Assembly (NCBI GenBank): GCA_945881835.1
Contig: CAMCVP010000001.1
Coordinates: 1-64,000, forward strand
DNA: 64,000 nucleotides
DNA from: Chryseobacterium gleum
GTDB lineage: Bacteria > Bacteroidota > Bacteroidia > Flavobacteriales_D > Sanyastnellaceae
Direction: 5' to 3'
The translations under genes and the position numbers were made by a program. This document shows positions 34,334-64,000 of this stretch, in pieces (the stretch's first letter is position 1; the number at the start of each line of letters is the position of its first letter). Under the pieces are notes generated by a model that searched no databases, was not told the DNA's origin, and was given only the letters and a program-made list of their open reading frames with translations.

Positions 34334-37300
34334 GTGAAAGAAATTGCCCTACGCCTCCTTTCAAGAGCCATTTTCGTAATGGCCCTTTGTGTTTCTGGCT
34401 GGTTGGCCTGGGCAAACACTTCGGTTGAGACACGCGTCATTGCGAAGTCGAATCATAATTTTGTTTTTGCTCCTGATACCGTAACGCCAATTTGGCCAAA
34501 CAATGACAGTCCTGCTCCGAGTGAGGGAGGCAGCGGTATCGAAATTCCATTGCCGTCAAACATTCACTATTCAGTAGAATACAATCCAGCCACAGGACGT
34601 TACGAAGTCGTGCAGAAAATCGGAGATAAGTTCGATTATCGCAGGCCGACTACTATGGATATGGAAGATTTTCTTGACTTCCAATTAGATAAAAATGTCT
34701 CGAAGTATTGGAACAAAATCAAGGACGATAAGTCTGCTGCAAACAAGGAGTTTGCTCCAGTAATTAAAGTTGGGGGAGATAACTTCGAACATATTTTTGG
34801 TTCGAATGAAATTGAAATTCGACCTCAAGGTTCAGCCGAATTAACGTTCGGTTTAAACTCTCAACGTACTGAAAACCCTCGTATTCCAGAGCGTCAGCGT
34901 AAAAACACTAACTTCAACTTCGATCAGAAAATTCAAATGAATGTCATTGGTAACATTGGCACCAAGATGAAGTTAAAGGTGAACTACAATACGGAAAGCA
35001 CCTTCGAATTCGAGAACAACATGAAGGTGGAATACACCGGCGATGAAGACCAAGTCATGCGCAAAATTGAATTGGGTACTGTTGCGCTTCCATTAACAGG
35101 AACGCTTATGCCCGGAAGCCTTGGTTTATTCGGAGCGAAGATTGAAACTCAATGGGGCAAGCTAAAGAACACAACCATTTTAACTCAACAAAAGGGTGAG
35201 CGAAAGGAAATCACGGTTCAAGGAGGGGCACAAACAACGCGCTTCGATATTGCCGCAGATAATTACGAGGCGAACCGACATTATTTCCTTTCAGGATATT
35301 TCAGAGACAATTACGACAATGCTTTGGCCGCGCTTCCTGTTGTAAACAGTGGAGTGAACATTACCCGAATTGAAGTTTGGGTAGTTAACCAGCAGGCCAA
35401 TACGCAAGACGTTCGGAATATTTTAGCATTTACTGATTTGGGGGAAAACTCTCAGTATTTGGCAACCGATTACAACAATTCAACACTTTTCAATCCGGGT
35501 CAACTTCAAAACCCAGACAACGAAAACAACAACCTTTACAATGTTGTTTCGAACAACCAAAATATTTTAGATTTTTCAAATGCTAATGCGGCCATTCAGT
35601 CGCTAGGATATGGAATGCGCCAAGGTATTCATTATGAAAGAGTCGGTAACGCAAGAAAATTGACGCCCTCTGAGTACACGTACAATTCTCGTTTGGGTTT
35701 CATTTCATTGAAGCAATCATTAAATAACGCCGAAGTTTTAGGGGTGTCCTACGAATACACGCTTAACGGTCAAACCTATCAGGTAGGTACGCTTTCTCAA
35801 GACGGAATAGCTGCACCACAAGCCTTAATGTTAAAGATGTTGAAGTCTTCTATCACCTTGGTGAAGTTGACAAACGGTGATCCTTCTCCGCTTTGGAAAA
35901 ACATGATGAAGAACGTCTACAACTTGGAGTCGTTTGGAATTTCTCCTGATAAGTTTCGTCTTGAAGTGTGGTACAACAACCCGGCAACGGGTGTGAACAT
36001 GAACTACATTCCACGAGAACCTCTCAGCGGGACACTTCTTTTACAGGTAATGAACCTCGATAGAATTGATGCCCAGCAAATGCCTGGAAGCGATGGTTTC
36101 TTCGACTTTGTTCCGAATGCGTCAACTGCAGGAGGATTGATAGACGCCTCTTCCGGACGCGTCTTTTTCCCAGTTGTCGAACCATTTGGTTCGCACCTGT
36201 CCGATAAAATATACGCGGGACTGGGAAACACACCGCAGGCTGCACAAGTGGTTTCGCAAGTAGTCTTCCAAGCGTTGTACGATTCAACCAAAACGGCAGC
36301 CCAAATCGGTTTCCCTCAATTGAATCGCTTCAGAATTAAAGGAGAATATCAAAGCGCTTCTGGTTCAGAAATTTCACTGAATGCATTAAATATTCCGCAG
36401 GGTGCCGTTACAGTTACAGCAGGTGGAATGAGACTTGTTGAAGGAACCGACTTCACGGTGAATTATAATTTGGGAAAGGTTACAATCCTCAATGAAAGCA
36501 TCATGAGCTCCGGTCAGCCAATAAAGGTGGCTGTTGAGAGTAACTCCATGTTTAATCTGCAATACAAAACCTTATTGGGAAGTAGATTCGATTACAAGTT
36601 TTCTGAAAATTTGGCCATGGGAGCCACTTTCATGAATTTGAAGGAACGTCCCCTTACCCAAAAAGTAAATGCTGGAGACGACCCCGTGAACAACGGTATG
36701 ATTGGTTTCGATATGAATTTCCAGAAGGAAGTTCCAATCATTACGAAATGGATAGATCGTATACCTGGAATTCAAACCAAAGAAAAGTCTACCGTTACCT
36801 TCAATCTAGAAGCCGCGAAAATTTTCCCAGGTCATTCACGAGCAATTTCGAAGGATGGAAATGCATACGTAGATGATTTCGAAGGAAGCCAAAGTGTCAT
36901 AGACTTGCGTTCTTTGAATCAGTGGTTCCTCGCTTCAACTCCGAAATTACAATCTTCACTTTTCCCTGAAGGAGATTTTGAAGACAGCTTGGTGTATGGC
37001 GCGAATCGCGCTCAATTGTCTTGGTATATCATTGATCCACTGTTTTACCGAAACAGTTCATACACACCTCCGAACATTACTGCAGATATGCAAAGCGATC
37101 ACCGCATGCGCGAGGTTTTGGAATCAGAGGTTTTCCCGAACAGACAATTGCCTTCAGGTACTCCACCGAACATCACGTGTTTAGATTTGACCTATTATCC
37201 AGACCAACGTGGTATGTACAATTACGATTTGCCGAATGGTTATTCGGGCAGAACCGCGGGATTGAATGACGACGGTACATTGAAAGATCCAGCTTCTCGT

Positions 37301-40300
37301 TGGGGAGGTATTCAACGTGCGTTAACCACAACAGATTTCGAAACGTCAAACGTTCAATTCATACAGTTTTGGGTAATGGATCCGTTCAATGAAGATTCTG
37401 AAAACGCTCAAGGGGGTGACCTTTATTTCAACTTGGGAAATGTTTCGGAAGACATCATGAATGATTCGCACATGAGTTTCGAAAACGGATTTCCATCTGC
37501 GAACAATGACTTGCCTATTGAGCAAGGAACTTGGGGAAATTATCCTTCACCTACAACATTCAATGTTGTTAACGCCTTTGATTACACTTCAGGAAATTAC
37601 GAGCAGCAAGATATTGGATTAGACGGATTGAACTCTGCAGCTGAGCAATCGTATTTTGCCAATTGGTTGTTACAAGTTCAGGGCTTTCTAACGCCAGATG
37701 CCTATGCGAAATATCAGCAGGATCCTTCTGCAGATAATTTCAGTTACTTCCGCAGTTCTCAAGCAGATGCGGCTAACTTGAACACCCTTGAGCGTTACAA
37801 GAACTTTAACAGGTACGAAGGGAATTCCAATACCAACACACCAGACGGATATCCGATTGCCGCAACTACAATTCCGAATTCGGAAGACATAAATCAAGAC
37901 ATTACGCTAAACACCATTGAAAGTTATTTTCAATATAAGGTTAGTCTTCGTCCTGGTGATTTAGGAGATGCTAATTTGGGAAGGAATTACATCACAGACA
38001 CTTTCGTAACAACGAAGACAACGGCGAATAACGAAGAGCGACAAATTCGTTGGTATCAGTTCAAAATTCCAATCAAAGAGTTTGAGAAGCGTGTGGGAAG
38101 TATTCCTGATTTCAGGTCAATTCGATACATGCGAATGTATTTAAAGGGTTGGGAAGAACCAGTAACCTTGCGTTTTGCGCGTTTGGAATTGGTGCGCGGC
38201 GAATGGCGCAAATATGATTACACCTTAGCCGGAAATCAAGAACAAGAAATTAACGACGATCCAGAAACGTCGTTCAACATTGCTGCTGTAAACATTGAAG
38301 AAAATGGAAATCGCGAGCCTGTTCCATACGTGGTTCCTCCAGGAATTATTCGTGAGCAAGACGTTGCCTCTGCCAACTTGAGAAATTTGAATGAGCAATC
38401 ACTTTCGTTAAGTGTATGCAATTTGAAAGATGGAGATGCGCGTGCAACCTATAAAAATGTGAAGTATGACTTGCGACAATACAAGCGTCTTCGAATGTTC
38501 GCGCACGCAGAAGCGGCGGGTATACAATCTGAATTAAAAGACAACGACGTTTCCGTATTCATTCGCTTGGGTTCTGACTTCGATCAGAACTATTATGAAT
38601 ACGAAGTGCCTATGAGCGTGACGCCGTGGTACACTAATAACGACGACGAAATTTGGCCTGGAGATAATAATTTTGATATTCAACTTTCAGATTTACAAAA
38701 TCTGAAAATAAATAGGCCTTCATCAACATCTGTATTGTCTGTTGTAGATACCATTCTCGACAACAACGTTCACCTTTCTGTAAAAGGAAATCCGAATTTG
38801 GCCAACATTACAACTATGATGATTGGTATTCGAAATCCCGATAAGGACACCAATCCTTTTGGCGTGGTCGATGACGGAAGAGGGAAATGTGCAACCGTTT
38901 GGGTAAACGAATTAAGACTGTCTGAATTCGATGAGAAATCGGGTTCTGCGGCAATTGCACGATTGAATGCACAATTGGCAGATTTTGGTAACCTTGCAGT
39001 ATCGGGAAATATAAGTACTCCTGGATGGGGTGCAATAGAACAGCGCGTGCAGCAAAGACAACAAGAAACGAAGATGGGTCTCGATGCGAGCAGCACATTG
39101 CAGCTTGGAAAATTCTTCCCTAAAGATTGGGGAGTGCAATTACCAATGTATTTAGGCTTCTCGGAAAATGTTCAAACCCCTCGTTACAGTCCTCTTCAAC
39201 CAGACATTCAAATGACGGATTTGCCGACATTGAATAAACCATTGAAGCAAAAATCGCAAACGTATACGAAGCGAAGAAGTATCAATTTCACAAATGTGAA
39301 AATTGCACCGAAGAAAGATGCTGCTGCAGCAAAAGGGGTTGGACTTCCAGGGGCCGACGATAAAGGGAAGACCGGAACACAAGCTGCTCCAACCAATTCC
39401 GATAAGCCGAAGTTTTATGGAGTAGACAATTTCTCTGTTTCATATGCCTACAACGAAACGTATTTCCGCGATATCAATACCGATTGGCGCTTGCAAAAGC
39501 AATATCAAGGAGCTTTCGATTATAGCTTCACCAACAAGCCAAAGGAATTTAAACCGCTTGCGAATATTCCAATTATTAAAACTTCGAAATATTTGAAGTG
39601 GTTGAAAGAGTTCAATTTCTACGCGGGTATTAAGCAAATGAGTTTCAGAACAGAAATGAATCGATCGTATGAAACAAGCAGAATCAGAAACAATTCATTG
39701 GAGTTAACGGGGGTTTACAGCGACATGCTCATTCAGACTCAAGCGCAAAAGAATTGGAATTGGACAAGGAATTATTCCATGAAATATGATTTGACAAAGA
39801 ATTTGAAAACTGATTTCGCGGCGAGCAATATTGCTTTGGTAGGCGAGCCTAGAGGGGTCATTAATAAGACAGATGTGGATTGGTATCAGTCTTATAAAGA
39901 TTCTGTGTGGAATAACATTCAGAATTTCGGTGAAACAACGACTTATAATCACAACGTTGGTGTTACCTACAAACTGCCGCTTGATAAATTTCCATTGTTG
40001 AATTTCATGAGTGCTGATGCGAGATATGGAGGAACATTCAGATGGGATCGAGCTCCGTTCACTCAAGATACATTGGGAAACACCATTCAGAATAGTCGCC
40101 AAATTCAGTTGAATGCCCAAGGTAATTTCGAGACGTTGTACAACAATGTCCCTCGATTGAAACAAGCATTAACAGGAAAGAAGCCAGATGCCGGAAAGAA
40201 GCCGGATGCTGGTAAAAAAGATGACCCCACGAAAAAGGACGGATTCGGAGATGACTTAACGAAGAAAGACAAAAAAGAAAAAGTAGATCCGTTAGATGTT

Positions 40301-41755
40301 GCCCTTCGTTTCTTTATGATGGTTCGAACCGTGAATGGAAGTTACACGAAAAATGAAGGCCTACTCTTGCCAGGATACGAGAATAGCACGAGTATTTTAG
40401 GATTCGACAATCAGTTTGACGGACCGGGAATAGGATTCCTTGTAGGACAGCAGAATACAGATCTCATGGGCAACCCAACGGGTCGAAATTTCGCGACAGA
40501 TGCCGCTAGCAATGATTGGTTGGTGCAACGACAGTCGTTGAACATTCAGTACAACGAAACCTTCACTGAAACATGGAATGCGAAAATGAATTTGGAGCCC
40601 TTCCGCTATTTCAAGGTTGAACTTTCAGCCACTCGTCAGGAAGGAAGAAATTACAACTCGTTTTTCAGATACGATCCAACCATTGACGACTTCGCTTTCC
40701 AATCTCCTATGGAGACCGGTAATTTCTCAGCTTCAATTATCACATGGAACACCGCGTTCACAAAAGACGATAAAGAAAACAACTATGCTAGTCCTATATT
40801 CGATCAGTTACTTGCGAATAGAAGAGAAATTTCAAGTCGTTGGAACGATGAGACCTATCAGTTGGCGAATCCGAATGATTCAGGTTATTACGATGGTTTT
40901 GGTTCACTTTCGCAGAATGTAGTTATTCCTTCTTTCATAGCAGCCTATTCAGGAAAGTCAGTAGATGAAGTTGCACTGAATCCTTTTGCAACGAAGGCGC
41001 AACCCAATTGGAAAATTACGTACGACGGTCTAACGAAATTGCCGGCCGTAAAGAAGTACTTCAAGCAGTTCAATGTTTCCCACAATTATCGTTCAACAGC
41101 AACGGCTTCTTATGTCACGAACTTGAAGTATGAGGAATTTAATAACCTTCCTTCGGCCATAGATCAAAGTGCAGAGCAGAACTTTGTTTCTCAGCAGCAA
41201 ATAGGTACAGTAACCCTTACAGAGTCAATGTCGCCATTGGTTGGATTCGACATGACCTTGAAGACAAAGAAAGTGAATGACCCTCTAATAAAGCTAGAAT
41301 ACAAGCGCGATAGAACAATTGCTTTGGGAATGGCCAACTACCAGATCACAGAAACCAAGAGCAACAGTTTTGTCATTGGTCTTGGATATAAAATTACCGA
41401 AGTCCCAAACCCGTTTGGAAGAAAAAAGGGCAGTAAACTTCCTGTAAAATTATTAGACAAATCAACCTTGAATCTGCGTGTCGACTTCACCATTCGCGAG
41501 AACTTTACTTTGATTAGAAAAATTGAAGAGCAACAGAATCAAGTAACTGCTGGACAAACATTATTTAGTGTGAAGTCAAGCGCAGACATGGCCATAAGTG
41601 ATAAGTTAACACTTCGTTTCTTCTACGATCATCAAATAAACAAGCCTGCAATCTCAACCAGTTTCCAAACGTCGAACATTTCGACAGGCTTGGCCATTCG
41701 CTTCACATTAAACGGTTCAGGAGGCTCAAATACCGCTCAGCCGCAGGGTCCATAA
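34334..41755 (+). CDS. sprA: SprA/Sov, outer-membrane translocon of the type IX secretion system
   Basis: A giant 2473-residue outer-membrane protein that forms the T9SS conduit (SprA of Flavobacterium, Sov of Porphyromonas). The start is GTG at 34334, with a signal-like segment FVMALCVSGWLAWA following; an ATG at 34379 is the alternative. The SprA family pattern is seen early: FEHIFGSNEIEIRPQGSAE, then GNIGTKMKLKVNYNTE. Further on are VDDFEGSQSVIDLRS and repeated amphipathic barrel strands to the end. Around residues 1948-1986 is a Lys/Asp-rich hydrophilic linker with an 18-bp repeat. The maeB-ruvA-sprA order is recalled as typical of gliding Flavobacteriales. Cargo for it is encoded elsewhere in the window. 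Confidence 0.96.
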   Translation: MKEIALRLLSRAIFVMALCVSGWLAWANTSVETRVIAKSNHNFVFAPDTVTPIWPNNDSPAPSEGGSGIEIPLPSNIHYSVEYNPATGRYEVVQKIGDKFDYRRPTTMDMEDFLDFQLDKNVSKYWNKIKDDKSAANKEFAPVIKVGGDNFEHIFGSNEIEIRPQGSAELTFGLNSQRTENPRIPERQRKNTNFNFDQKIQMNVIGNIGTKMKLKVNYNTESTFEFENNMKVEYTGDEDQVMRKIELGTVALPLTGTLMPGSLGLFGAKIETQWGKLKNTTILTQQKGERKEITVQGGAQTTRFDIAADNYEANRHYFLSGYFRDNYDNALAALPVVNSGVNITRIEVWVVNQQANTQDVRNILAFTDLGENSQYLATDYNNSTLFNPGQLQNPDNENNNLYNVVSNNQNILDFSNANAAIQSLGYGMRQGIHYERVGNARKLTPSEYTYNSRLGFISLKQSLNNAEVLGVSYEYTLNGQTYQVGTLSQDGIAAPQALMLKMLKSSITLVKLTNGDPSPLWKNMMKNVYNLESFGISPDKFRLEVWYNNPATGVNMNYIPREPLSGTLLLQVMNLDRIDAQQMPGSDGFFDFVPNASTAGGLIDASSGRVFFPVVEPFGSHLSDKIYAGLGNTPQAAQVVSQVVFQALYDSTKTAAQIGFPQLNRFRIKGEYQSASGSEISLNALNIPQGAVTVTAGGMRLVEGTDFTVNYNLGKVTILNESIMSSGQPIKVAVESNSMFNLQYKTLLGSRFDYKFSENLAMGATFMNLKERPLTQKVNAGDDPVNNGMIGFDMNFQKEVPIITKWIDRIPGIQTKEKSTVTFNLEAAKIFPGHSRAISKDGNAYVDDFEGSQSVIDLRSLNQWFLASTPKLQSSLFPEGDFEDSLVYGANRAQLSWYIIDPLFYRNSSYTPPNITADMQSDHRMREVLESEVFPNRQLPSGTPPNITCLDLTYYPDQRGMYNYDLPNGYSGRTAGLNDDGTLKDPASRWGGIQRALTTTDFETSNVQFIQFWVMDPFNEDSENAQGGDLYFNLGNVSEDIMNDSHMSFENGFPSANNDLPIEQGTWGNYPSPTTFNVVNAFDYTSGNYEQQDIGLDGLNSAAEQSYFANWLLQVQGFLTPDAYAKYQQDPSADNFSYFRSSQADAANLNTLERYKNFNRYEGNSNTNTPDGYPIAATTIPNSEDINQDITLNTIESYFQYKVSLRPGDLGDANLGRNYITDTFVTTKTTANNEERQIRWYQFKIPIKEFEKRVGSIPDFRSIRYMRMYLKGWEEPVTLRFARLELVRGEWRKYDYTLAGNQEQEINDDPETSFNIAAVNIEENGNREPVPYVVPPGIIREQDVASANLRNLNEQSLSLSVCNLKDGDARATYKNVKYDLRQYKRLRMFAHAEAAGIQSELKDNDVSVFIRLGSDFDQNYYEYEVPMSVTPWYTNNDDEIWPGDNNFDIQLSDLQNLKINRPSSTSVLSVVDTILDNNVHLSVKGNPNLANITTMMIGIRNPDKDTNPFGVVDDGRGKCATVWVNELRLSEFDEKSGSAAIARLNAQLADFGNLAVSGNISTPGWGAIEQRVQQRQQETKMGLDASSTLQLGKFFPKDWGVQLPMYLGFSENVQTPRYSPLQPDIQMTDLPTLNKPLKQKSQTYTKRRSINFTNVKIAPKKDAAAAKGVGLPGADDKGKTGTQAAPTNSDKPKFYGVDNFSVSYAYNETYFRDINTDWRLQKQYQGAFDYSFTNKPKEFKPLANIPIIKTSKYLKWLKEFNFYAGIKQMSFRTEMNRSYETSRIRNNSLELTGVYSDMLIQTQAQKNWNWTRNYSMKYDLTKNLKTDFAASNIALVGEPRGVINKTDVDWYQSYKDSVWNNIQNFGETTTYNHNVGVTYKLPLDKFPLLNFMSADARYGGTFRWDRAPFTQDTLGNTIQNSRQIQLNAQGNFETLYNNVPRLKQALTGKKPDAGKKPDAGKKDDPTKKDGFGDDLTKKDKKEKVDPLDVALRFFMMVRTVNGSYTKNEGLLLPGYENSTSILGFDNQFDGPGIGFLVGQQNTDLMGNPTGRNFATDAASNDWLVQRQSLNIQYNETFTETWNAKMNLEPFRYFKVELSATRQEGRNYNSFFRYDPTIDDFAFQSPMETGNFSASIITWNTAFTKDDKENNYASPIFDQLLANRREISSRWNDETYQLANPNDSGYYDGFGSLSQNVVIPSFIAAYSGKSVDEVALNPFATKAQPNWKITYDGLTKLPAVKKYFKQFNVSHNYRSTATASYVTNLKYEEFNNLPSAIDQSAEQNFVSQQQIGTVTLTESMSPLVGFDMTLKTKKVNDPLIKLEYKRDRTIALGMANYQITETKSNSFVIGLGYKITEVPNPFGRKKGSKLPVKLLDKSTLNLRVDFTIRENFTLIRKIEEQQNQVTAGQTLFSVKSSADMAISDKLTLRFFYDHQINKPAISTSFQTSNISTGLAIRFTLNGSGGSNTAQPQGP
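40175..40228 (+). repeat. 18-bp tandem repeat inside sprA
   Basis: Units 40175-40192 and 40193-40210 encode GKKPDA, and a degraded third copy (40211-40228) encodes GKKDDP. It opens a Lys/Asp-rich stretch running to about 40290, likely a disordered loop between barrel strands. Confidence 0.75.
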
Positions 41756-53878: not shown

Positions 53879-55315
53879 TTAATCGATGTAAGTGTCGATT
53901 TCTCCGATTAAGGTCACTGCGGTAGAAGAAAGTGCATTTACCCATACATATTTGCCAATTTTCGCTTCTTTTTTCGAAAAAACCACCACGACGTTCTGGG
54001 TATTGCGTCCGTAAAAGTGTTCTTGCGATTTTTTGGAAATTCCCTCAACTAAGACTTTATGTCGCTTTCCTACGTGTGCGGCTGTTCTTTCAGCGACACA
54101 AGCCATGTGCATGTCAATGATTTCATTCAGGCGTTGGCTTTTTACTTCTTCTGAAATATTGTCTTCGAATTTTCTCTCGGCCAGGGTTCTAGGTCTTTCA
54201 GAATATTTAAACATGTACGCCATGTCGTATTTCACTTCAGCCATTAATGAAAGTGTATCTGCATGCTCAGCATCTGTTTCATCGCAGAAGCCCGCGATGA
54301 CATCTGTACTAATTGCACATTCAGGCATGTACTTGCGAATAGCTGCAATGCGATCGAGGTACCATTCGCGAGAATACCCGCGGTTCATGCGCTTCAATAC
54401 ATCTGTGTTTCCACTTTGAACAGGCAAGTGTATGTAATCGCATATGTTTTCGTACTTCGCCATGGTGATTAGCACTTCATCGGTCATGTCTTTCGGATGA
54501 CTGGTTGAAAAGCGAACACGAAGGCTTGGACTTACTTCAGCAACAGCGGCGAGTAGCTGAGCGAAATTTACGGTTGGTTCATTCGGATCAACGATTTCTC
54601 CTTTTGCCGTGATGTTCCATTTATAACTGTCTACGTTTTGGCCGAGAAGGGTAACCTCTCGGTAGCCGCGATTGAAAAGATCTGTTGCTTCTTCAACAAT
54701 GGTTTTAGGATCGCGGCTACGTTCTCTTCCGCGTGTAAAAGGAACTACACAAAAGGAACACATGTTATCGCATCCGCGCATAATTGAGATAAACGCAGTT
54801 ACACCGTTGCTGTCTAAACGAACAGGGGTAATTTCTGCGTACGTTTCTTCACGGCTAAGCAAAACATTTATGGCTTTGCTTCCGTGTTCAACTTGAGAAA
54901 CGAGTCGAGGTAAATCGCGGTAGGCATCTGGACCTACGACCATGTCTACGAGTTTCTCTTCTTCCATGAGTTTTTCTCGCAAACGCTCGGCCATGCAGCC
55001 AAGTACGCCAACGACCATTTCGGGTTTGCGTTTTTTTACTGAATTCAAAAATTCAAGTCTTCCGCGAATGCGTTGTTCTGCGTTATCGCGAATGGCGCAA
55101 GTGTTTAGGAGCACTAGATCGGCCTCTTCAACATCGCGTGTGGTGGTGAATCCTTCTTGCGCCATAATAGAGGCTACAATTTCAGAATCTGCAAAATTCA
55201 TTTGGCAACCGTAGCTCTCGAGCAACAGTTTTTTTTGCGCTCCATTCTGATTTATGGGAGTCGAAATTTCAAAAAATTCGCCCTGTCTTGTCTCGTCAAT
55301 TTGTTTTTCTTCCAC
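53879..55315 (-). CDS. miaB: tRNA-2-methylthio-N6-dimethylallyladenosine synthase MiaB
   Basis: A 478-residue radical-SAM methylthiotransferase acting on i6A37 of tRNAs. The N-terminal UPF0004 domain holds three cluster cysteines (SYGCQMNFAD, LLNTCAIRDNA, GVLGCMAERL). The radical-SAM CxxxCxxC is in RGCDNMCSFCVVPFTRG, and a TRAM domain ends the protein. The start codon is GTG at 55315; no ATG precedes the first cluster motif. It diverges from topA across 129 bases. Confidence 0.96.
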   Translation of the reverse strand: MEEKQIDETRQGEFFEISTPINQNGAQKKLLLESYGCQMNFADSEIVASIMAQEGFTTTRDVEEADLVLLNTCAIRDNAEQRIRGRLEFLNSVKKRKPEMVVGVLGCMAERLREKLMEEEKLVDMVVGPDAYRDLPRLVSQVEHGSKAINVLLSREETYAEITPVRLDSNGVTAFISIMRGCDNMCSFCVVPFTRGRERSRDPKTIVEEATDLFNRGYREVTLLGQNVDSYKWNITAKGEIVDPNEPTVNFAQLLAAVAEVSPSLRVRFSTSHPKDMTDEVLITMAKYENICDYIHLPVQSGNTDVLKRMNRGYSREWYLDRIAAIRKYMPECAISTDVIAGFCDETDAEHADTLSLMAEVKYDMAYMFKYSERPRTLAERKFEDNISEEVKSQRLNEIIDMHMACVAERTAAHVGKRHKVLVEGISKKSQEHFYGRNTQNVVVVFSKKEAKIGKYVWVNALSSTAVTLIGEIDTYID

Positions 55316-55390
55316 AGTGTCTGGCTGTTTTGATTAGTGTGCAAAAATAATCTATTTCTATAGAAATAGCATATATAATCGCATAACCAA

Positions 55391-55424
55391 TTTGGAGACT
55401 AACGAATAAATGCATATACCTTTG
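55391..55424 (+). promoter_or_regulatory. Bacteroidota-type promoter of topA
   Basis: TTTG (55391-55394) is followed after 22 bases by TACCTTTG (55417-55424), an exact TAnnTTTG box, 20 bases before the topA ATG. Confidence 0.6.
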
Positions 55425-55444
55425 CCGCAATTCAAAAACAAAAT

Positions 55445-57865
55445 ATGGCTAAAAATCTTGTTATAGTAGAGTCCCCTGCAAAGGCGAAAACAATCGAAGG
55501 TTATTTGGGAAGTGACTACGTCGTTAAGGCGAGTATAGGGCACGTTCGTGATTTGCCAAAGAATAATTTTGCAGTGAGTGCTGATGGAAATTTCGATGTG
55601 ACTTACGAAGTTTATCCAGACTCGGAGAAGGTGGTTAGTGAATTGAAGAAATTAGCGAAAGACGCAATTAAAGATAATAAGTTTGTTTGGTTAGCGACGG
55701 ATGAGGACCGCGAGGGAGAGGCAATTTCTTGGCATTTGTTGGAGGCAATGAAGCTCGAGGAGAGCAATACAAAACGCATTGTATTTTCCGAGATTACCAA
55801 AAAAGCAATCCTAGCGGCAATGGAAAAGCCAAGAACCATAGACATGGACTTGGTGAATGCGCAGCAAGCAAGAAGAATTTTAGATAGAATAGTTGGTTTT
55901 GAACTTTCGCCAGTTTTGTGGAGAAAAGTTGGACCATCATTGAGCGCCGGCCGTGTGCAAAGCGTTGCCGTTCGATTAATTGTGGAAAGAGAACGTGAGG
56001 TAGAAGCCTTCAATGCATCTGCATATTTCGGTATTCGTGCCATGTTCGATTTGACTGACGCTGTGTTAAAAGCAGATTTACCTGGAAAAATTTCTGACGG
56101 AACAGCTGCTCAAGCGTTTTTAGAAGATTGTAAAAATGCTGAGTTTGCGATTTCTTCATTGGAAACGAAGCCGGGATCAAGAACGCCTGCGGCACCATTC
56201 ACAACTTCAACCCTTCAACAAGAGGCAGGCAGAAAGTTGGGTATGTCTGTAAAGGCAACCATGACTGTTGCACAGAAACTATATGAGAGTGGAAAGATTA
56301 CCTACATGAGAACTGACAGTATGAACTTGTCAGATTTCGCAAGGGATGCGGCGAAGCTCGAGATCGTTTCAAGTTTCGGAGAAAAATATTCAAATCCAAG
56401 AGTATTCAAGTCGAAAAAGGGTGCGCAAGAAGCACACGAGGCGATTCGTCCAACCGATATGGCTGTAAAAACCATTGATGGAGATACCAACGAGAAAAGA
56501 CTTTACGAATTAATTTGGAAGAGAACATTGGCAAGCCAGATGGCCGATGCGAAATTGGAAAACACAACGGCACATGTGAACATTTCAACACGAAGTGAAA
56601 CCCTTGTTGCAAAAGGACAAGTTGTGAAATTCGATGGTTTCTTGAAGGTGTATATGGAAGGAACAGACGATGAAGAGTCTGACGAAAGCGGCGTTCTTCC
56701 TCCATTGCATGAAGGACAGATTCTCGATTTGAGAAACATGGTGGCGCAAGAAAAATTCACACAGAAACCTGCACGTTATAGCGAGGCTAGTTTGGTGAAG
56801 AAAATGGAAGAGTTAGGTATTGGAAGACCTTCAACCTATGCATCTACAATCAGCACAATACAGGCTCGTACTTATGTTGTGAAGCAGGATTTGGAAGGTA
56901 AACCGCGATCATATGCAGTACACACTTTAGCGAATAAGAACATTACTTCAGAGACGAAAACTGAGAATACCGGAGCTGAAAGAGCAAAGTTATTCCCAAC
57001 AGACATTGGACGTGTGGTAAATGATTTCTTGGTGGAAAATTTCAAGAAGATTCTTGATTACGCATTTACTGCCAACGTCGAAGAAGAATTCGACACCATT
57101 GCTGAAGGTAAGTTAGATTGGAAGAAAATGCTTCATACATTCTACAATCCGTTTCATGAGAACGTGAATAAAACAATGAACGAAGCTGCCCGTGCTTCCG
57201 GTGAGCGTTTTTTGGGAGACGATCCTGCAACTGGAAAGCCAATCATTGCACGTATCGGAAGGTTCGGTCCGATGATTCAATTGGGAACTGCTGAAGAAGA
57301 AGAGAAGAAATTTGCATCGCTTCGTCCAAACCAAAGTATCAACACCATAACCTTGGAAGAAGCATTGGATTTATTCAAAATGCCGCGTAACCTAGGTGAA
57401 TGGAATGGTGAAAAGATTGTGGTGGGAATCGGTCGTTTCGGTCCGTATGTGAAATACAAATCTACCTACGCTTCGCTTCGTGTGAAGGAAGGGGATGATC
57501 CGTTCACCATTGATTTGGAAAGAGCAGTCAAACTCGTTGAAGATAAAATCAACGGAGTGAACGCAAACCTGCTTAAGACTTTCACGGAAGATGAGAATGT
57601 TCAGATCATTAATGGACGCTTCGGGGCTTATTTGAAATCAGGAAACTTGAATTTCAAACTTCCCAAAGGAGCTAAGGCTGAAGACATTTCTTGGGCAAAT
57701 GCTCAGCAAATCATGGAAGAGCAAATGGAGCAGGCAACGAAAAAGGCAGCTTCAAGAAAGCCAGCACCTAAAAAGGCTCCTGCAAAGAAGGCTCCTGCAA
57801 AAAAGGCGGCAGCTAAGAAAGCGCCTGCTAAGAAGGCCGCAGCGAAAAAATCACCGAAGAAGTAA
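55445..57865 (+). CDS. topA: DNA topoisomerase I
   Basis: An 806-residue type IA topoisomerase that relaxes negative supercoils. The Toprim domain opens with NLVIVESPAKAKTIEGYL and has the acidic DEDREGEAISWHL. The catalytic Tyr is in ITYMRTDSMNLS, and GRPSTYASTI and RVQSVAVRLI are also seen. There is no tetracysteine zinc-ribbon; instead C-terminal repeats (IGRFGPMIQ, IGRFGPYVKY, INGRFGAYLKSG) are present. The last 38 residues are a Lys/Ala/Pro tail resembling histone H1 (57750-57862). A short hairpin (57865-57882) follows the stop. Confidence 0.97.
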   Translation: MAKNLVIVESPAKAKTIEGYLGSDYVVKASIGHVRDLPKNNFAVSADGNFDVTYEVYPDSEKVVSELKKLAKDAIKDNKFVWLATDEDREGEAISWHLLEAMKLEESNTKRIVFSEITKKAILAAMEKPRTIDMDLVNAQQARRILDRIVGFELSPVLWRKVGPSLSAGRVQSVAVRLIVEREREVEAFNASAYFGIRAMFDLTDAVLKADLPGKISDGTAAQAFLEDCKNAEFAISSLETKPGSRTPAAPFTTSTLQQEAGRKLGMSVKATMTVAQKLYESGKITYMRTDSMNLSDFARDAAKLEIVSSFGEKYSNPRVFKSKKGAQEAHEAIRPTDMAVKTIDGDTNEKRLYELIWKRTLASQMADAKLENTTAHVNISTRSETLVAKGQVVKFDGFLKVYMEGTDDEESDESGVLPPLHEGQILDLRNMVAQEKFTQKPARYSEASLVKKMEELGIGRPSTYASTISTIQARTYVVKQDLEGKPRSYAVHTLANKNITSETKTENTGAERAKLFPTDIGRVVNDFLVENFKKILDYAFTANVEEEFDTIAEGKLDWKKMLHTFYNPFHENVNKTMNEAARASGERFLGDDPATGKPIIARIGRFGPMIQLGTAEEEEKKFASLRPNQSINTITLEEALDLFKMPRNLGEWNGEKIVVGIGRFGPYVKYKSTYASLRVKEGDDPFTIDLERAVKLVEDKINGVNANLLKTFTEDENVQIINGRFGAYLKSGNLNFKLPKGAKAEDISWANAQQIMEEQMEQATKKAASRKPAPKKAPAKKAPAKKAAAKKAPAKKAAAKKSPKK

Positions 57866-57933
57866 ATGTGAATCATCACATTCCTTTGTTGAAATGATTT
57901 TTTAGTGGAAGGAAAATGATTGACTCATCCATG

Positions 57934-57941
57934 TAGTTTCG
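57934..57941 (+). promoter_or_regulatory. Possible -7 box of the ureohydrolase-fold gene
   Basis: TAGTTTCG differs from TAnnTTTG at one base and lies 5 bases before the ATG at 57947, a position that would give an almost leaderless mRNA. Weak evidence on its own. Confidence 0.3.
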
Positions 57942-57946
57942 TACTC

Positions 57947-59113
57947 ATGGATTTGTCAGTATTTCTCTCGCCGAGTATTTTTCACGATAGCTCGAATCGC
58001 TTCTTTGCGAACAACACCTTGGGTGCTCAAACGCGTTTTTATTTCGATGATGAAAACGATTTGAACGAAAGGCAAATAGCTATTGTTGGTGTTTGTGAAG
58101 ACCGAAATTCGGAAAACAATTCAGGCGCGGCAAATGCTCCCGATGATGTTCGAAGAGAATTGTACAAATTGTTAGCCTGCGACGATTATTCGAAAATTGT
58201 CGATTTAGGAAACATACTGCCTGGAGAAACTCCCGAGGATACCTATTATGCCCTTTCGGAAGTCTGCACGGCTTGTATGAAGTTGAACATTATTCCTGTT
58301 GTCATTGGTGGGACCCAAGATTTAACCTTTGCAACCTACAAGGCCTACGAGGCCATGGAGCAAACGGTAAACCTAGTAACCATAGATTCAAAGTTAGACT
58401 TTGGATCAAGTCCGGACGACTCCTCAGCGGAAGGTTATTTGAATCGAATTATTCTTCATCGTCCAAATTATTTGTTCAATTTTTCAAATTTGGGACATCA
58501 GCGTTATTTAACAGACAAGGCTCTGATTGAATTAACGACCAAGATGTATTTTGATGCCATAAGGTTGGGTGAAATTCAGCAAGATCTTTCGATTGCGGAA
58601 CCGGTCATTAGAAATGCAGATTTGTTAAGTTTCGATTTAAGTTCCATACGTTTTTCGGAATTTATGTCCACCAAGAAAAGCGGCCCGAATGGTTTTTTTG
58701 GTCATGAGGCGGCACAGTTGTGTAAATATGCGGGTATGAGTGAAAAGCTTACCTGCATAGGATTTTATGAGTTTAATCCTTCCTTGGATGATACTGGCCA
58801 GTCTGCAAAACTGATGGCACAATTGATATGGTGTTTCATCGATGGGTACCATGCTCGCCGTGGCGATTATCCAATTGCATCACTTTCAGAATATGAAAAA
58901 TTCATTGTTCTACTAACCGACTCAGGCGACGAGCTGGTTTTTTATAAAAGTCATTTAACAAATCGTTGGTGGTTGGAAGTTGCTTATCCCGCAGGTTCCG
59001 AAGAAAAACATGAGCGAAATCATGTTGTGCCATGCACCTATGCCGACTATATGATGGCCTCTCAACAAGAAATGCCAGACAGGTGGTGGATGACTTTTCA
59101 AAAGTTGGTGTAA
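57947..59113 (+). CDS. Arginase/formimidoylglutamase-fold protein with degenerate metal site
   Basis: A 388-residue protein of the ureohydrolase fold. The core strands and loops are recognisable (PVVIGGTQDLTFA, LVTIDSKLDFGSS, LLSFDLSSIRFSE), but manganese ligands are lost. GGxHD has become GGTQD (Gln124 for His), DxHxD has become DSKLD (Lys149 for His), and the SFDxD motif reads SFDLS (Ser232 for Asp). It is therefore unlikely to hydrolyse guanidino or formimino substrates by the usual two-manganese mechanism. A 100-residue N-terminal part and a long C-terminal part (TNRWWLEVAYP) are outside the standard fold. It lies just before the T9SS motor operon. An in-frame TTG at 57920 was not used. 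Confidence 0.8.
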   Translation: MDLSVFLSPSIFHDSSNRFFANNTLGAQTRFYFDDENDLNERQIAIVGVCEDRNSENNSGAANAPDDVRRELYKLLACDDYSKIVDLGNILPGETPEDTYYALSEVCTACMKLNIIPVVIGGTQDLTFATYKAYEAMEQTVNLVTIDSKLDFGSSPDDSSAEGYLNRIILHRPNYLFNFSNLGHQRYLTDKALIELTTKMYFDAIRLGEIQQDLSIAEPVIRNADLLSFDLSSIRFSEFMSTKKSGPNGFFGHEAAQLCKYAGMSEKLTCIGFYEFNPSLDDTGQSAKLMAQLIWCFIDGYHARRGDYPIASLSEYEKFIVLLTDSGDELVFYKSHLTNRWWLEVAYPAGSEEKHERNHVVPCTYADYMMASQQEMPDRWWMTFQKLV

Positions 59114-59225
59114 AGAAAGTTAGGTTTCCAAGAATAGACATGTCTAATTTGTTGAGTTATCTCGCTGAAAATCATGGGGTATTGGGTGTTTAGGCTTTAG
59201 TGAATGTTGAATTTCACTTGTTTTT

Positions 59226-59256
59226 TTTGTTTTTTTAAATAGATTTTCTATTTTAG
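59226..59256 (+). promoter_or_regulatory. Probable promoter of the sprF-gldKLM operon
   Basis: TTTG (59226-59229) is separated by 19 bases from TATTTTAG (59249-59256), one mismatch from TAnnTTTG. This would give a leader of about 50 bases before the ATG at 59315. The rest of the 201-base gap (59114-59314) shows nothing else. Confidence 0.45.
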
Positions 59257-59314
59257 CAAACTCTGTGACTTCCCAGATGGGGTGGAAGCAGACTTAAAAC
59301 GAACGAAACAAACG

Positions 59315-60268
59315 ATGAAAAAACTTTATTTTCTTCTCTTAACGTTTTCTCTTGTAGGTGCGGTTAATGCCCAACAAGATCCTCAATTTTCGTTGTGGAT
59401 GTTTGACAAAATTTCATTCAACCCTGCTGCTGCGGGTATTGATAACATGCATCAAATTCAAGCCTTCCACAGAGATCAGTGGGATGGTTTTGATCGCGAT
59501 CCCAAAACCTATTTGTTTAATTACAATGGCTACGTTAAGGCAGCTGGAAGAACGATTGGTTTGGGTGTCAGCGCCATGACTGAAGTTCTTGGACAAGAGC
59601 AAAATAAGTTTGCAAGATTGTCGGGATCTTTTCATCAGCCAATCGGTAATAATATTTTGTCTGCAGGATTTCAAGTTGGAATGGTTTCAAAGACATTGGG
59701 TACGAATTGGATAGCAATTGACCCGACTGACCCTAACATTCCTATAACTGGACTTTCTCAGGGAGGTTTCGACGCAAACTTCGGATTAATGTTTTATCAG
59801 AAGGATAAGTTTTACGCTGGTGTAAGTGCAACCCATTTACCTGCTACAAGTTTGGCTGATCTTGGTTTTGCTACAGCGCGTCACTTGTATATCATGGGTG
59901 GATATAATCACGATTTAAACAATGGATTAGTCATTCGCACAAATGTTTTAGCCAAAACAGATATGAAAGCCTCCCCAGCTATTGACGTTAATGCGAATGT
60001 TCTCTGGAACAATTTACTATGGGGTGGAGTTGCTTTCCGTCCTGGAGATGCAATCGTTCCAATGGCGGGTATGCAAATGGCTTTGAACACTGTTCAGCAA
60101 GGGCGTTACACGTATACCCATGGATTTAAAATGGGCTATTCCTACGATGTTACTTTAAGCACAATTAAAGATTACAGCGCAGGTTCACACGAGTTCTTTT
60201 TGACATATGAATTTAATTTAGGAAAAACCCCAATTCGAAGAATTTCAGGTGATCCTCGATTATTGTAA
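59315..60268 (+). CDS. PorP/SprF-family T9SS outer-membrane protein
   Basis: A 317-residue outer-membrane barrel. The signal peptide (residues 1-19, ending VNAQ) is followed by QDPQFSLWMFDKISFNPAAAG, shown here as QDPQFSLWMF and FNPAAAG, the start typical of PorP/SprF. Later FHRDQWDGFDRDP and strands such as GVSATHLPATSLAD appear. Family members accompany GldK/PorK in the T9SS core or serve one SprB-like cargo; lying directly ahead of gldK, this one is probably the core member. ATG at 59315 chosen because it begins the signal peptide. Confidence 0.9.
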   Translation: MKKLYFLLLTFSLVGAVNAQQDPQFSLWMFDKISFNPAAAGIDNMHQIQAFHRDQWDGFDRDPKTYLFNYNGYVKAAGRTIGLGVSAMTEVLGQEQNKFARLSGSFHQPIGNNILSAGFQVGMVSKTLGTNWIAIDPTDPNIPITGLSQGGFDANFGLMFYQKDKFYAGVSATHLPATSLADLGFATARHLYIMGGYNHDLNNGLVIRTNVLAKTDMKASPAIDVNANVLWNNLLWGGVAFRPGDAIVPMAGMQMALNTVQQGRYTYTHGFKMGYSYDVTLSTIKDYSAGSHEFFLTYEFNLGKTPIRRISGDPRLL

Positions 60269-60301
60269 CAATAAAATGAAACCCAACGTAGTTATAAATA
60301 C

Positions 60302-60328
60302 GTTAAACTTAACCCAACAGAGTTTAAC
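60302..60328 (+). other. Intercistronic hairpin between the sprF-like gene and gldK
   Basis: GTTAAACT (60302-60309) pairs perfectly with AGTTTAAC (60321-60328) across an 11-base loop, 18 bases before the gldK start. There is no T tract, so it is not a standard terminator. It may mark an mRNA processing or stability site. Confidence 0.5.
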
Positions 60329-60346
60329 TCATTAATTTAGGAAGTC

Positions 60347-61738
60347 ATGAAAAAGTCAATTTTGTTTTTCGCATTAGTGTCTTCGCTGCTTGTCGGATGT
60401 TATTCCGGTCCTGCAGGAGAACTAGTAGGTGTATATCCTCGCGAGGAATGGGTTCAAGTGAATCCATATGGAATGAATTACATTCATTTTGGTTCCTTCA
60501 CCATGGGTAACAATGACCGCGACTTAGCTGGCGGGATGACCGTAAAGGCAAAAACCGTTACTGTTTCGGCGTATTACATGGATCAACATGAAATTTCAAA
60601 CAACGAATATCGCCAATTCGTTTATTGGGTGCGCGACTCTCTGATGAGAGATCAGTTAGCTCAAAACGAAATCGAAGGTTTCGGTATTTCTGAGCGTGAA
60701 GACGGTCGTGAAATGGATCGCTTCATTAATAAGGGGTACAAGTTGGATTGGGAGACTGAAATAGATATGGAGAATGATGAGATTTTCGATATCGTTTATG
60801 ATGAATTTTATCTTCAAGGTGCTGACAAGTACTACGATCGTAAGGAAATTGATTCTCGTAAGTTGAAATACCGTTACTGGTGGATCGATTTCGAGGGCGC
60901 GGCTAAGAAAAAAGGAAATCGTGATGAAGAGACAGGAGAGAAGAACTCTTTGGATCAATTGCACTCTATTAAAATCAACTCAGACAGAACGAAATTCGTT
61001 GTTGAAGAACAAATAAACGTATACCCTGACACATTAGTTTGGGCACATGATTTCACATACTCGAACAACACTCACTTAACTGAAACTTATTTTTGGCACC
61101 CGGCTTATGACGACTATCCAGTTGTAGGTGTTACTTGGGGTCAATGTCAAGCATTCTGCGCTTGGAGAACACAAATTCTAAACGAGTGGAAGCAACAAAA
61201 CGGTGAGACCTTTGTACAACGTTTCCGCCTGCCTTCGGAGGCTGAATGGGAATATGCATCTCGCGGTGGACTTTCTAACGAAGAATATCCTTGGGGTGGT
61301 CCATACACACGTAACTACTTAGGTTGTCCATTGGCTAACTTTAAGCCTATGCGCGGTGATTATCCGGATGATAACGGTGTTCATACCGTTCCAATCGGGT
61401 CATACTCACCAAACGGATGGGGTCTATACAACATGGCGGGTAACGTAGCAGAGTGGTGTAACACCGCTTATGACGAGGCGGCTTACGAAATCATGCATGA
61501 CTTGAACCCTGAATACGACTACCGCGCGAAGGAAGATGATGCAACAACACAAAAACGTAAGGTAATTCGTGGAGGATCTTGGAAAGACATTTCTTATTTC
61601 ATTCAATGCGGATCGCGTTCGTATGAATTCCAAGACACTGCAAAGTCTTACATCGGATTTCGTTGCGTAATGACCTACTTAGGTCGCGGAAAGAGTGGTC
61701 CTGCTGAAGATTGGAACAATCCTGCTGGCAACGAATAA
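60347..61738 (+). CDS. gldK: Gliding motility / T9SS lipoprotein GldK (PorK)
   Basis: A 463-residue outer-membrane lipoprotein with lipobox SLLVGC (C18). The body is a formylglycine-generating-enzyme (SUMF1) fold: FGSFTMGNNDRD, YYMDQHEISNNEYRQF, FRLPSEAEWEYASRGG, NMAGNVAEWCNTAYDE and VIRGGSWKD. In the T9SS this fold is structural: with GldN it makes the periplasmic ring. An insert of about 150 residues in the middle (FVVEEQINVYPDTLVWAHDFTYS region) is normal for GldK. Gap of 78 bases from the sprF-like gene. Confidence 0.96.
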   Translation: MKKSILFFALVSSLLVGCYSGPAGELVGVYPREEWVQVNPYGMNYIHFGSFTMGNNDRDLAGGMTVKAKTVTVSAYYMDQHEISNNEYRQFVYWVRDSLMRDQLAQNEIEGFGISEREDGREMDRFINKGYKLDWETEIDMENDEIFDIVYDEFYLQGADKYYDRKEIDSRKLKYRYWWIDFEGAAKKKGNRDEETGEKNSLDQLHSIKINSDRTKFVVEEQINVYPDTLVWAHDFTYSNNTHLTETYFWHPAYDDYPVVGVTWGQCQAFCAWRTQILNEWKQQNGETFVQRFRLPSEAEWEYASRGGLSNEEYPWGGPYTRNYLGCPLANFKPMRGDYPDDNGVHTVPIGSYSPNGWGLYNMAGNVAEWCNTAYDEAAYEIMHDLNPEYDYRAKEDDATTQKRKVIRGGSWKDISYFIQCGSRSYEFQDTAKSYIGFRCVMTYLGRGKSGPAEDWNNPAGNE

Positions 61739-61788: not shown

Positions 61789-62583
61789 ATGAAACCTGGA
61801 AGTAAAGCTTGGAAAAATTTTATGGCAAAACTGTACGGAATCGGGGCAGCTGTCGTAATTATTGGAGCGATGTTTAAAATTCAGCACTGGCCATTCGCGT
61901 CTTTGCTACTTGTTGTGGGATTGAGTACAGAAGCTGTTATCTTCTTTTTCTCTGCATTTGAACCGTTACACGAAGAACCAGATTGGTCTTTAGTATACCC
62001 TGAATTAGCTACTCCAGAAGACGGTGAGCACGGTCACGGGTCTTCAAAGAAGCCTGCTGTTAACAAAGGAGTTTCTCAGCAATTGGATGCACTTTTGAGT
62101 GAAGCTAAGATTGACGGAGATTTGATTTCAAGTCTTGGTGATGGAATGAGAACTTTCAGTTCTAACGCTCGTCAAATGGCAGATTCTACCGACGCTGCAA
62201 TGGCTAGCTCTAACTATGCTTCTTCATTACAAGACGCTTCTGCAAAGGTTGCTAAATTGGCTTCAACTTATGAGGCTGCTTCTGAGCAATTAACAGGTCT
62301 TGCTGCTCATTCTGAGCAAGGAGCTAACGCAGGAGAACATCTTCAAAAAATGTCGCAAAATCTTGCTGCATTGAACGGAATGTACGAATTGCAATTGTCT
62401 GAATTGGAGAAAACTCGTGTTATGTTCGGCGATATGGGTGCATTGGTTAAAAACCTTGCAGACTCTGTTGAAGATACCAAGTTGTATAAAGAGAACATTT
62501 CTGAGCTTGCGCATAACTTGAAATCTTTGAATACGATTTATGCGAACATGTTGAATGCAATGGGCTCTGGCCGTCAAGCATAA
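61789..62583 (+). CDS. gldL: T9SS / gliding motor membrane protein GldL
   Basis: A 264-residue inner-membrane protein with two helices (about 15-30 and 38-57). It makes the proton-driven motor with GldM. In KIQHWPFASLL and LSTEAVIFFFSAFEP the buried charged residues are Lys30, Glu48 and Glu58, positions matching Lys27, Glu49 and Glu59 discussed for the Flavobacterium protein (from memory). The rest is a long, probably coiled-coil cytoplasmic part rich in Ala and Ser. It is followed after 43 bases by gldM. Confidence 0.96.
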   Translation: MKPGSKAWKNFMAKLYGIGAAVVIIGAMFKIQHWPFASLLLVVGLSTEAVIFFFSAFEPLHEEPDWSLVYPELATPEDGEHGHGSSKKPAVNKGVSQQLDALLSEAKIDGDLISSLGDGMRTFSSNARQMADSTDAAMASSNYASSLQDASAKVAKLASTYEAASEQLTGLAAHSEQGANAGEHLQKMSQNLAALNGMYELQLSELEKTRVMFGDMGALVKNLADSVEDTKLYKENISELAHNLKSLNTIYANMLNAMGSGRQA

Positions 62584-62626: not shown

Positions 62627-64000
62627 ATGGCAGGTGGAAAAGAAACCCCACGGCAGAAGATGATCGGGATGATGTATCTCGTTCTTACCGCACTTCTAGC
62701 CATGAATATATCGAAGGACGTTTTGAACGCCTTCATTCAAATCAATCGCGGATTGGTGAAAAACAGCGCTAACTCTGAGGAGCGTGCTGACGCAACGTTA
62801 GGATTACTAGACAACTGGAGTGACAAGGAAAAGGCTCGCCCTTTCCAAGACAAAGCGCATGAAATGGTTGAAAAAGCCGATGCGTTAGTTAAGTATGTCA
62901 TTGAAATGCAAGCACACGTTTTGGCATGTTCTGCAAAGGGCAGTCCTGATGGCGCTGGATTTGAAGAATTTATCGTAGATGGACATTTGATTGACATAGG
63001 GGACAAAGAAAAAGTTTCTAAACCCGATGAAAACCAAAATACCACAGGTATGTTAATTGGCGATGAGCCAGCTTCTCCAAAGAACGGTGCTTGGTCAGCT
63101 TTGGAACTACGTGAAAAGTTGACTGCTTTTTCTAATGAGTGTCAAAATTTATCTGTAACTGATTTAAAAGGAAATGTTCACACACTGGCCGACAGAGCTC
63201 CGGAAGCCAAAGCTCTTATTGCTAACACATTTGCTTTCGAGGATGTTAAAAATCACGAAGAAGGTGAGCCAGACGAGAAGTGGGAAACTGCTCTTTTCTA
63301 TCACACACCTCTTGCTGCGGTAATTGCTCACTTAAGTAAAATTGAGTCTGACGTTATCTTGGTGAAGAACACCGTATTAAACTTCTTGGCTTCTTCGATC
63401 AACGCATCCGATTTGAAATTCTCGGATGTAACCGTAGCTGTTGTTCCAAAACAAAGCTATATTTTGAAAGGAGACTCGTTTGTAGCAGAAATTTATTTGG
63501 CTGCATACAACAAGGCTAGCAAAACTAGAGTTTATATGGGTGGTGAAGTAGGAGAAGGAGCAAAGCCTGAGTTATTCGATTACGCCGGTAAGGAGCCGAT
63601 CATGTCTGGTTCAGACGGAAAGTGTAAATTCAAGATTAACGAAAGCGCTTTAGGTTCTCACTCTCACAAAGGGGTAATTGTGTATCAAGATGCCGATGGT
63701 AATGATGTGCCAAAACCATTCATCATTCCTCCATTCACGGTAGGTGAAGCAGCCTTGGTTGTTTCTCCAACTGCTATGATGGTGTTTTATGAGCGTGTAG
63801 AGAACCCAGTTGAAATTTCAGTTCCTGGTGTTGACCCAAGTCAATTGAGCGTGAGCATGAGCGGAGGATCTATTTCACCGAAGGGTGGTGGAAACTACGT
63901 TGTAATGCCAACGAACGGTTCGAAAGATGCAACGATTAACGTATCTGCTACCATCAATGGAAAACAAGTGAGCATGCCTGGTAAGCAATTTAAGATTAAA
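62627..64000 (+). CDS. gldM: T9SS / gliding motor protein GldM (N-terminal part, cut by window end)
   Basis: 458 residues of GldM are visible and the frame is open at the window edge; full-length relatives have about 510-530. It has one N-terminal helix (about 12-28 in MIGMMYLVLTALLAMNIS) that inserts into the GldL ring, then a helical periplasmic domain (about 30-220) and successive beta domains (from VTVAVVPKQSYILKGDSFV). GldM carries motor torque to the GldK/GldN ring. gldN would be expected beyond the window. Confidence 0.96.
   Translation, partial: MAGGKETPRQKMIGMMYLVLTALLAMNISKDVLNAFIQINRGLVKNSANSEERADATLGLLDNWSDKEKARPFQDKAHEMVEKADALVKYVIEMQAHVLACSAKGSPDGAGFEEFIVDGHLIDIGDKEKVSKPDENQNTTGMLIGDEPASPKNGAWSALELREKLTAFSNECQNLSVTDLKGNVHTLADRAPEAKALIANTFAFEDVKNHEEGEPDEKWETALFYHTPLAAVIAHLSKIESDVILVKNTVLNFLASSINASDLKFSDVTVAVVPKQSYILKGDSFVAEIYLAAYNKASKTRVYMGGEVGEGAKPELFDYAGKEPIMSGSDGKCKFKINESALGSHSHKGVIVYQDADGNDVPKPFIIPPFTVGEAALVVSPTAMMVFYERVENPVEISVPGVDPSQLSVSMSGGSISPKGGGNYVVMPTNGSKDATINVSATINGKQVSMPGKQFKIK

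Follow-up and report, generated by a model that had tools for sequence, protein, structure and literature searches.

Inactive ureohydrolases are known already, and the cases named in the available portion of PMC11271267 (Trypanosoma brucei, mammalian agmatinase, Fusobacteriaceae and metformin degraders) come from few lineages; the same portion describes the earlier cases as elusive in function. The arginase-like protein of T. brucei (Hai et al., 2015, as cited in that portion) is eukaryotic and has no T9SS context. In metformin hydrolase, MetCb (MfmB) is a ureohydrolase-fold pseudoenzyme kept for binding (PMC11271267, available portion).

The gene considered here is an open reading frame encoding 388 amino acids on the forward strand (57947..59113, with its ATG at 57947 and its stop codon, included in this interval, at 59111-59113) of a 64,000-nucleotide stretch from Chryseobacterium gleum, hereafter called the window. 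Its product belongs to the ureohydrolase superfamily, as seen from the match to Pfam Arginase PF00491 (69.5 bits for a cut-off of 22) and from an arginase alpha/beta fold. Among the curated enzyme models, formimidoylglutamase is the closest to it, and the 54 members of its family that were scanned all match the NCBIfam model hutG (TIGR01227). As regards structure, HutG (4mxr, 3m1r, 1xfk) exhibits the same fold (Z 32-37), and the chains of metformin hydrolase (8x3g, 8snf, 8ryi; the subunit identity of the chains being left aside) reach Z ~33 against the window model. However, the window protein differs from HutG in its score (85.1 bits, well below the equivalog cut-off of 229.15), in the loss of two metal-B ligands and in the addition of an 85-residue C-terminal extension. 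A plain catalytic formimidoylglutamase is ruled out by the ligand changes together with this score. No publication describing the gene was found among the titles and abstract openings listed by literature searches, and the word "arginase" is absent from the available portions of PMC12635249 and PMC8754138.

The best explanation for this protein is a cytosolic pseudo-ureohydrolase with a binding or scaffold function, most likely in an accessory and dispensable T9SS or gliding role, a reading to which we give a probability of roughly one in two. If the T9SS link is true, a well-studied secretion and gliding motor may include a cytosolic component that went unnoticed because of its resemblance to an enzyme.

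Metal ligands lost and kept

In arginase, H101 and D128 bind metal A only, H126 and D234 bind metal B only, and D124 and D232 bridge the two metals. We take Q124, D147, K149, D151, D230 and S232 of the window protein to match the rat arginase ligands H101, D124, H126, D128, D232 and D234, respectively. As proposed in an earlier note on this DNA, Q124, K149 and S232 replace H, H and D in the window protein; D147, D151 and D230 are kept. The codon of Q124, which replaces the metal-A histidine, lies at 58316..58318 (forward strand), and 144 of the 174 family members have Q at this position, 22 have H and 6 have N. The DxHxD motif has lost its His but kept both Asp in D147-S-K149-L-D151 (58385..58399, forward strand), with D147 in 169/174 and D151 in 156/174 members, and the DxD motif has lost its second Asp in D230-L-S232 (58634..58642, forward strand), where D230 is found in 168/174. 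Position 149 displays 17 different residues across the 174 members; H at this H126-equivalent position (16/174) and D at the D234-equivalent position 232 (5/174) never occur together.

The 174 members are the distinct sequences, some of them fragments, obtained from 180 loci, nine sub-threshold sequences having been dropped before the count (L036, L037, L038, L041 and L186-L190). None of them has all six ligands, and neither does any of 30 further members, which are the best-scoring ones from the order of genome G267 (presumably Bacteroidales) and may overlap the named MAGs mentioned below. The pseudoenzyme claimed in the earlier note thus held up when the ligand positions were checked on orthologues, and the family is almost certainly one of pseudo-ureohydrolases, meaning here that the binuclear site is lost. 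The window's genome carries two other PF00491 proteins, both stronger matches, and one of them, the control arginase L192, shows the canonical motifs (GDHS, DAHAD and FDVD) together with 230.4 bits against an arginase cut-off of 227.6.

Taken alone, the H-to-Q124 change would not necessarily inactivate an enzyme, since N stands at this position in L190, the nearest non-family relative aligned, where the other five ligand letters are intact, and since the title of PDB entry 4myn, "N114H variant", points to N in wild-type Trypanosoma cruzi formiminoglutamase (we take N114 to be equivalent to window position 124). The decisive losses are K149 and S232. In a FastTree phylogeny of the 174 members and 7 outgroup sequences (322 columns), the lost His changes 68 times and the lost Asp 43 times, the median over 387 sites being 35; at the three kept Asp there are 1, 12 and 2 changes and at the H101-equivalent position 13, all these counts being approximate because the deepest splits within the family are poorly supported (0.16-0.76). 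The metal-B-specific positions are therefore without detectable constraint, whereas the other three carboxylates are strongly constrained. On the same tree, with its weak deep splits, the ancestral residue at position 124 is H or Q.

Such constraint on the three Asp, well below the median of changes, would suit a re-tooled enzyme, i.e., a one-metal hydrolase, lyase or esterase working on Q/H124, D147, D151 and D230 with the help of E275, which presumably aligns with the catalytic Glu of arginase and is kept in 131/174 members; the 22 members retaining H124 point the same way. However, known ureohydrolase catalysis uses two metals, in five members of f15 two of the three Asp are replaced by S and the third by N, and the decayed proteins L186 and L189 are without the site but keep the C-terminal signature described below. 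A re-tooled enzyme is considered quite improbable.

Regarding a possible partner enzyme, the protein could be the inactive subunit of a heteromeric ureohydrolase of the MetCb/MetCa type. There is a precedent in the same superfamily, MetCb being an inactive, metal-free binder according to the available portion of PMC11271267, and the two other PF00491 proteins of the window's genome are in keeping with this idea. MetCb requires an active cognate, whereas 8 of 80 gene-bearing genomes show a single, weak PF00491 match, located at the gene itself in G010, G136, G251, G298, G383 and G386 (its placement is not listed for G018 and G175); another PF00491 match or a strong one is found in 72/80. An obligate active partner is contradicted by these eight genomes, because they show one weak match only. 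Moreover, no second arginase-like gene was found beside the gene in the loci scanned with the window protein and the family profile, and the heteromeric subunit is regarded as highly improbable.

Besides this family, a second low-scoring arginase-family protein of ~340-380 aa, with 80-90 bits to PF00491, is found elsewhere in several genomes (e.g., G060:C6:75311-76135 and G263:C1:2459562-2460410). L041, possibly of the same kind, has all six ligand letters intact.

Conserved residues and the C-terminal extension

Strong purifying selection acts on the gene, with dN/dS values of 0.017-0.084 in 15 pairs, which are approximate since several dS exceed 1 and the stop-to-stop frames used include ~9 codons before the ATG. 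These values, together with the lack of stops in the matches listed, rule out a decaying pseudogene. Fourteen sites are unchanged in the 174 members, namely R69, D86, G88, G121, Q185, E218, P219, R222, G249, G263, W295, G300, W341 and C363, and none of them is a metal ligand. Two of these, W341 and C363 (174/174), are carried with W342 by the C-terminal extension of ~85 residues (residues 305-388; 58859..59110, forward strand), which is not found in the ordinary ureohydrolases compared.

The AlphaFold model of the window protein (pLDDT 88.9, pTM 0.91) superposes with its residues 20-305 on T. cruzi formiminoglutamase 4myn (VIA-align Z 36.6, rmsd 2.0 over 277 residues), with VIA-align Z values of 28-37 to structures of the superfamily and a Foldseek match of the model to structures at E 4.5e-18. 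The 50 structural matches listed stop at model residues 299-310, short of the extension. When modelled alone (pLDDT 76, pTM 0.64), the extension gave no PDB match at E<=0.001, and the best match in a search with its sequence reached only E 1.5.

Three decayed members from f17, outside the 174, bear on where the conserved function resides. In L186 and L189, the N-terminal half and the metal motifs are unrecognisable, and Q185, E218, P219, R222, G249, W295, W341 and C363 are kept. The conserved function can be placed in the C-terminal half and the extension because these two proteins keep the signature without the N-terminal half, L188, which has lost E218, P219, R222 and C363, being a counter-example.

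The members of the family probably serve a new function that is not enzymatic. The protein would very probably act mainly by binding and not by catalysis, and its N-terminal sequence suggests a cytosolic location. It can be hypothesized that the protein does not hydrolyse guanidino compounds and has a binding or scaffold role, the working surface being formed by residues from the fold's second half (Q185, E218-P219, R222 and G249) and by the extension (W341 and C363), while the kept carboxylates may either bind a single metal ion or simply stabilise the fold. As it occurs in most sampled genomes of one class, under strong selection and with a fixed signature, the family offers a tractable system for studying an arginase fold without its metal cluster.

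Gene neighbourhood

Upstream of the gene lies topA (55445..57865, forward strand; TIGR01051, 669.7 bits), which is probably co-transcribed with it. Downstream, an intergenic stretch (59114..59314, forward strand) leads to a gene of the sprF/porP family (59315..60268; TIGR03519, 201.7 bits for a cut-off of 90.55), followed by gldK (60347..61738; TIGR03525, 565.8 bits, cut-off 350), gldL (61789..62583; TIGR03513, 222.1 bits, cut-off 68.3) and gldM (62627..64000, cut by the window end; TIGR03517, 234.3 bits, cut-off 180), all on the forward strand. No Rfam match was found at 55200-60500, and a scan of 57800-60400 yielded 7 promoter-like sites for 5.9 expected and 2 terminator-like sites for 2.8 expected.

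The same arrangement is found in many genomes. Among loci L001-L034 of a 40-genome set, the order in 31 of the 34 is topA, gene, sprF, all on the same strand, and in 30 of these gldK then follows within the sequence stretch examined; as for the exceptions, only topA is present in L023, L026 is cut short by a contig edge and L033 is without topA. Across the 180 loci, many of which have short flanks, topA is found upstream in 101, sprF or gldK downstream in 87 and both in 83; the 79 loci with no topA upstream owe this in part to their short flanks. In family f16 (inferred to be Flavobacteriaceae), gldL lies within 3 kb of the gene in all 45 sampled genomes (2.1-2.9 kb, start to start), and 61 of the 104 genomes in the order of G267 have it within 6 kb, which is a lower bound because of contig breaks. 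In 30 loci of this order (own locus L194 left out), topA is upstream in 27 and sprF within the short flank in 10. The neighbourhood between topA and sprF-gldKLMN is ancient. The position between topA and sprF-gldKLM given in the earlier note is confirmed by the profile matches of the neighbours, and its idea is not refuted for want of a conserved link to T9SS genes, given these downstream counts (87/180, 45/45 and at least 61/104) and the gldJ neighbourhoods described below.

The spacing on the two sides of the gene differs. In the 83 loci with both neighbours, the gap from topA has a median of 22 nt (52/83 are <=60 nt, some overlapping; 81 nt in the window) and the downstream gap one of 228 nt (4/83 are <=60 nt, three of these negative from the start-codon rule), these lengths being approximate as start codons were chosen by rule. 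The medians of 22 and 228 nt suggest that the gene is transcribed together with topA and that the gld operon starts separately. A Bacteroidota-type promoter pattern occurs in 6/83 downstream gaps and in 0/83 upstream gaps, the downstream stretches being longer. Thus, although the core T9SS and gliding genes sprF and gldKLM(N) adjoin the gene in most loci of the window's order and in many of that of G267, the gene differs from them in forming a separate spacing unit, and also in a distribution that is not strictly shared.

These tight topA gaps (52/83 against 4/83 downstream), and the topA adjacency without gld genes in G267's order (27/30 against 10/30 for sprF, within short flanks), would fit a non-catalytic housekeeping protein unrelated to T9SS, e.g., belonging to a topA unit or to the envelope, with the gld adjacency as mere inherited order. 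So would the retention of the gene in the T9SS-less genomes G383 and G637 and its lack in T9SS-bearing lineages, both described below. However, the topA adjacency is lost in many loci, those of f13, f14, f18 and f19 among them, and the gene stays; in these four families it is located elsewhere, beside varied genes. Further points against a housekeeping protein are the lack of the gene in all nine GldL-less genomes of G267's order, although GldL-bearing sisters from f188, f121 and f21 lack it too, and two lineages that place it near gldJ. On balance, a housekeeping role is considered somewhat unlikely.

At loci without gldK, the 19 neighbour proteins scanned include an epimerase, a serB-like protein, AhpC/TSA, purD, SecA, peptidase S13, MutL and pheS; two gave no match, and other T9SS genes may be missed in such a scan. 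With regard to gldJ, the decayed gene and a gldJ-like gene point towards each other, with one gene between them, in three f17 genomes (L186, L188 and L189). This gldJ-like gene scores 404-411 bits with GldJ (cut-off 458) and 237-246 bits with GldK (cut-off 350); in L186 the intervening gene is murF, and in both L186 and L189 gldJ is preceded by sprF. At the Pedobacter xixiisoli locus (L132:6971-13030), 1.7 kb separate the gene from a gldJ-like gene (403 bits), which itself adjoins porV (486 bits, cut-off 250). For a T9SS link, these gldJ neighbourhoods are suggestive only, because they were met by chance, the GldK model also catching GldJ. The Pedobacter loci L129 and L140 display an ORF with the appearance of purD where L132 has the gldJ-like/porV region.

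Distribution relative to T9SS and proposed role

The gene was matched in 38 of the 40 genomes, the window's own included, the match in G031 being only weak; in a class sample, 234 of 246 genomes (own included) match at E<=0.001. The class is inferred to be Bacteroidia, and relatives include Pedobacter, Mucilaginibacter, Solitalea, Arcticibacter, several MAGs with a Bacteroidales label and the Flavobacteriales MAG ZE-3nov15-71 (95% identity). When 392 genomes were drawn from across the phylum, the full-length matches listed all lay inside the window's class; those listed outside the class have <=143 bits and are without the C-terminal extension, because they end at or before profile position 323. 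In f13 (presumably Sphingobacteriaceae), the gene is present in 71/71 genomes and GldL over its cut-off in 68/71. This distribution is that of an orthologous family of the class, presumably Bacteroidia, derived from a formimidoylglutamase-like enzyme.

In the class sample, 231 genomes have both the gene and GldL over the cut-off, 7 have GldL only, 3 the gene only and 5 neither; G537, one of the gene-only genomes, has a sub-cut-off GldL match and SprA, and G475 from the last group has SprA. In the order of G267, the corresponding counts are 104, 36, 0 and 9, five weak matches (<=66 bits) being counted as ordinary ureohydrolases. Fisher tests on the raw counts give p ~6e-6 and ~1e-5 with kinship ignored, and the raw association of the gene with T9SS is confounded by kinship. 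GldL-bearing members of f121 and f188 (both from G267's order) and of f21 are also without the gene, so the co-absence may predate the GldL losses.

Strict dependence on T9SS is contradicted both ways. SprA and GldL are found without any match to the gene in G374, G410, G565, G581, G227, G286, G392 and G443, and in G031, whose listed completeness is 100%, SprA is accompanied by no more than a weak match of the ordinary ureohydrolase kind. Conversely, the gene is open and full-length in G383 and G637, where neither GldL nor SprA was found, and it is kept in G473 (95% completeness), where GldL and SprA were not found. With the gene missing in 7/238 GldL-bearing genomes of the class sample and in 36/140 of G267's order, and present in G383 and G637, the protein is not a core component of the T9SS or gliding machine. 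A phylogenetic profile against T9SS, as proposed in the earlier note, hence gave an association in raw counts, and these same genomes speak against strict co-distribution. Distance co-evolution over 28 loci, based on rough distances, gave a mixed picture, with partial r values of 0.48 for gldK, 0.26 for gldL, 0 for gldM and 0.42 for topA.

The earlier note had further suggested that the dead enzyme became a partner of gliding and secretion. Its premises of a dead enzyme and of the neighbourhood stood; the partnership itself is not favored by the spacing, which groups the gene with topA, and by the non-strict distribution. That the binding serves T9SS or gliding is proposed tentatively, at somewhat less than even odds. 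If it does, its most likely use, as the neighbourhood suggests, would be an accessory role on the cytosolic face of the T9SS or gliding machine, in its building or regulation. PorL binds the regulator PorX, according to the title of PMC5005315, and by analogy the cytosolic domain of GldL may be a plausible docking place. In its most specific form, the proposal would be that of an unnamed cytosolic T9SS/gliding accessory, which arose from a dead formimidoylglutamase in the Bacteroidia ancestor, uses its invariant C-terminal half to bind either a metabolite or the cytosolic portion of the GldL motor, tunes assembly or activity, and is dispensable where T9SS control has been rewired; this full version is unlikely as it stands.

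Within f13, SprA is present in G631, which has a sub-cut-off GldL, and G041 and G661 are without SprA. Signs of T9SS loss in this family comprise GldL missing in G383 and G637 or carrying internal stops in G651, and SprA missing in G383, G637, G041 and G661. In the window itself, sprA, which encodes the T9SS translocon, is also found (34541-41710, two SprA matches in one 2482-aa frame), ~18 kb upstream of the gld cluster.
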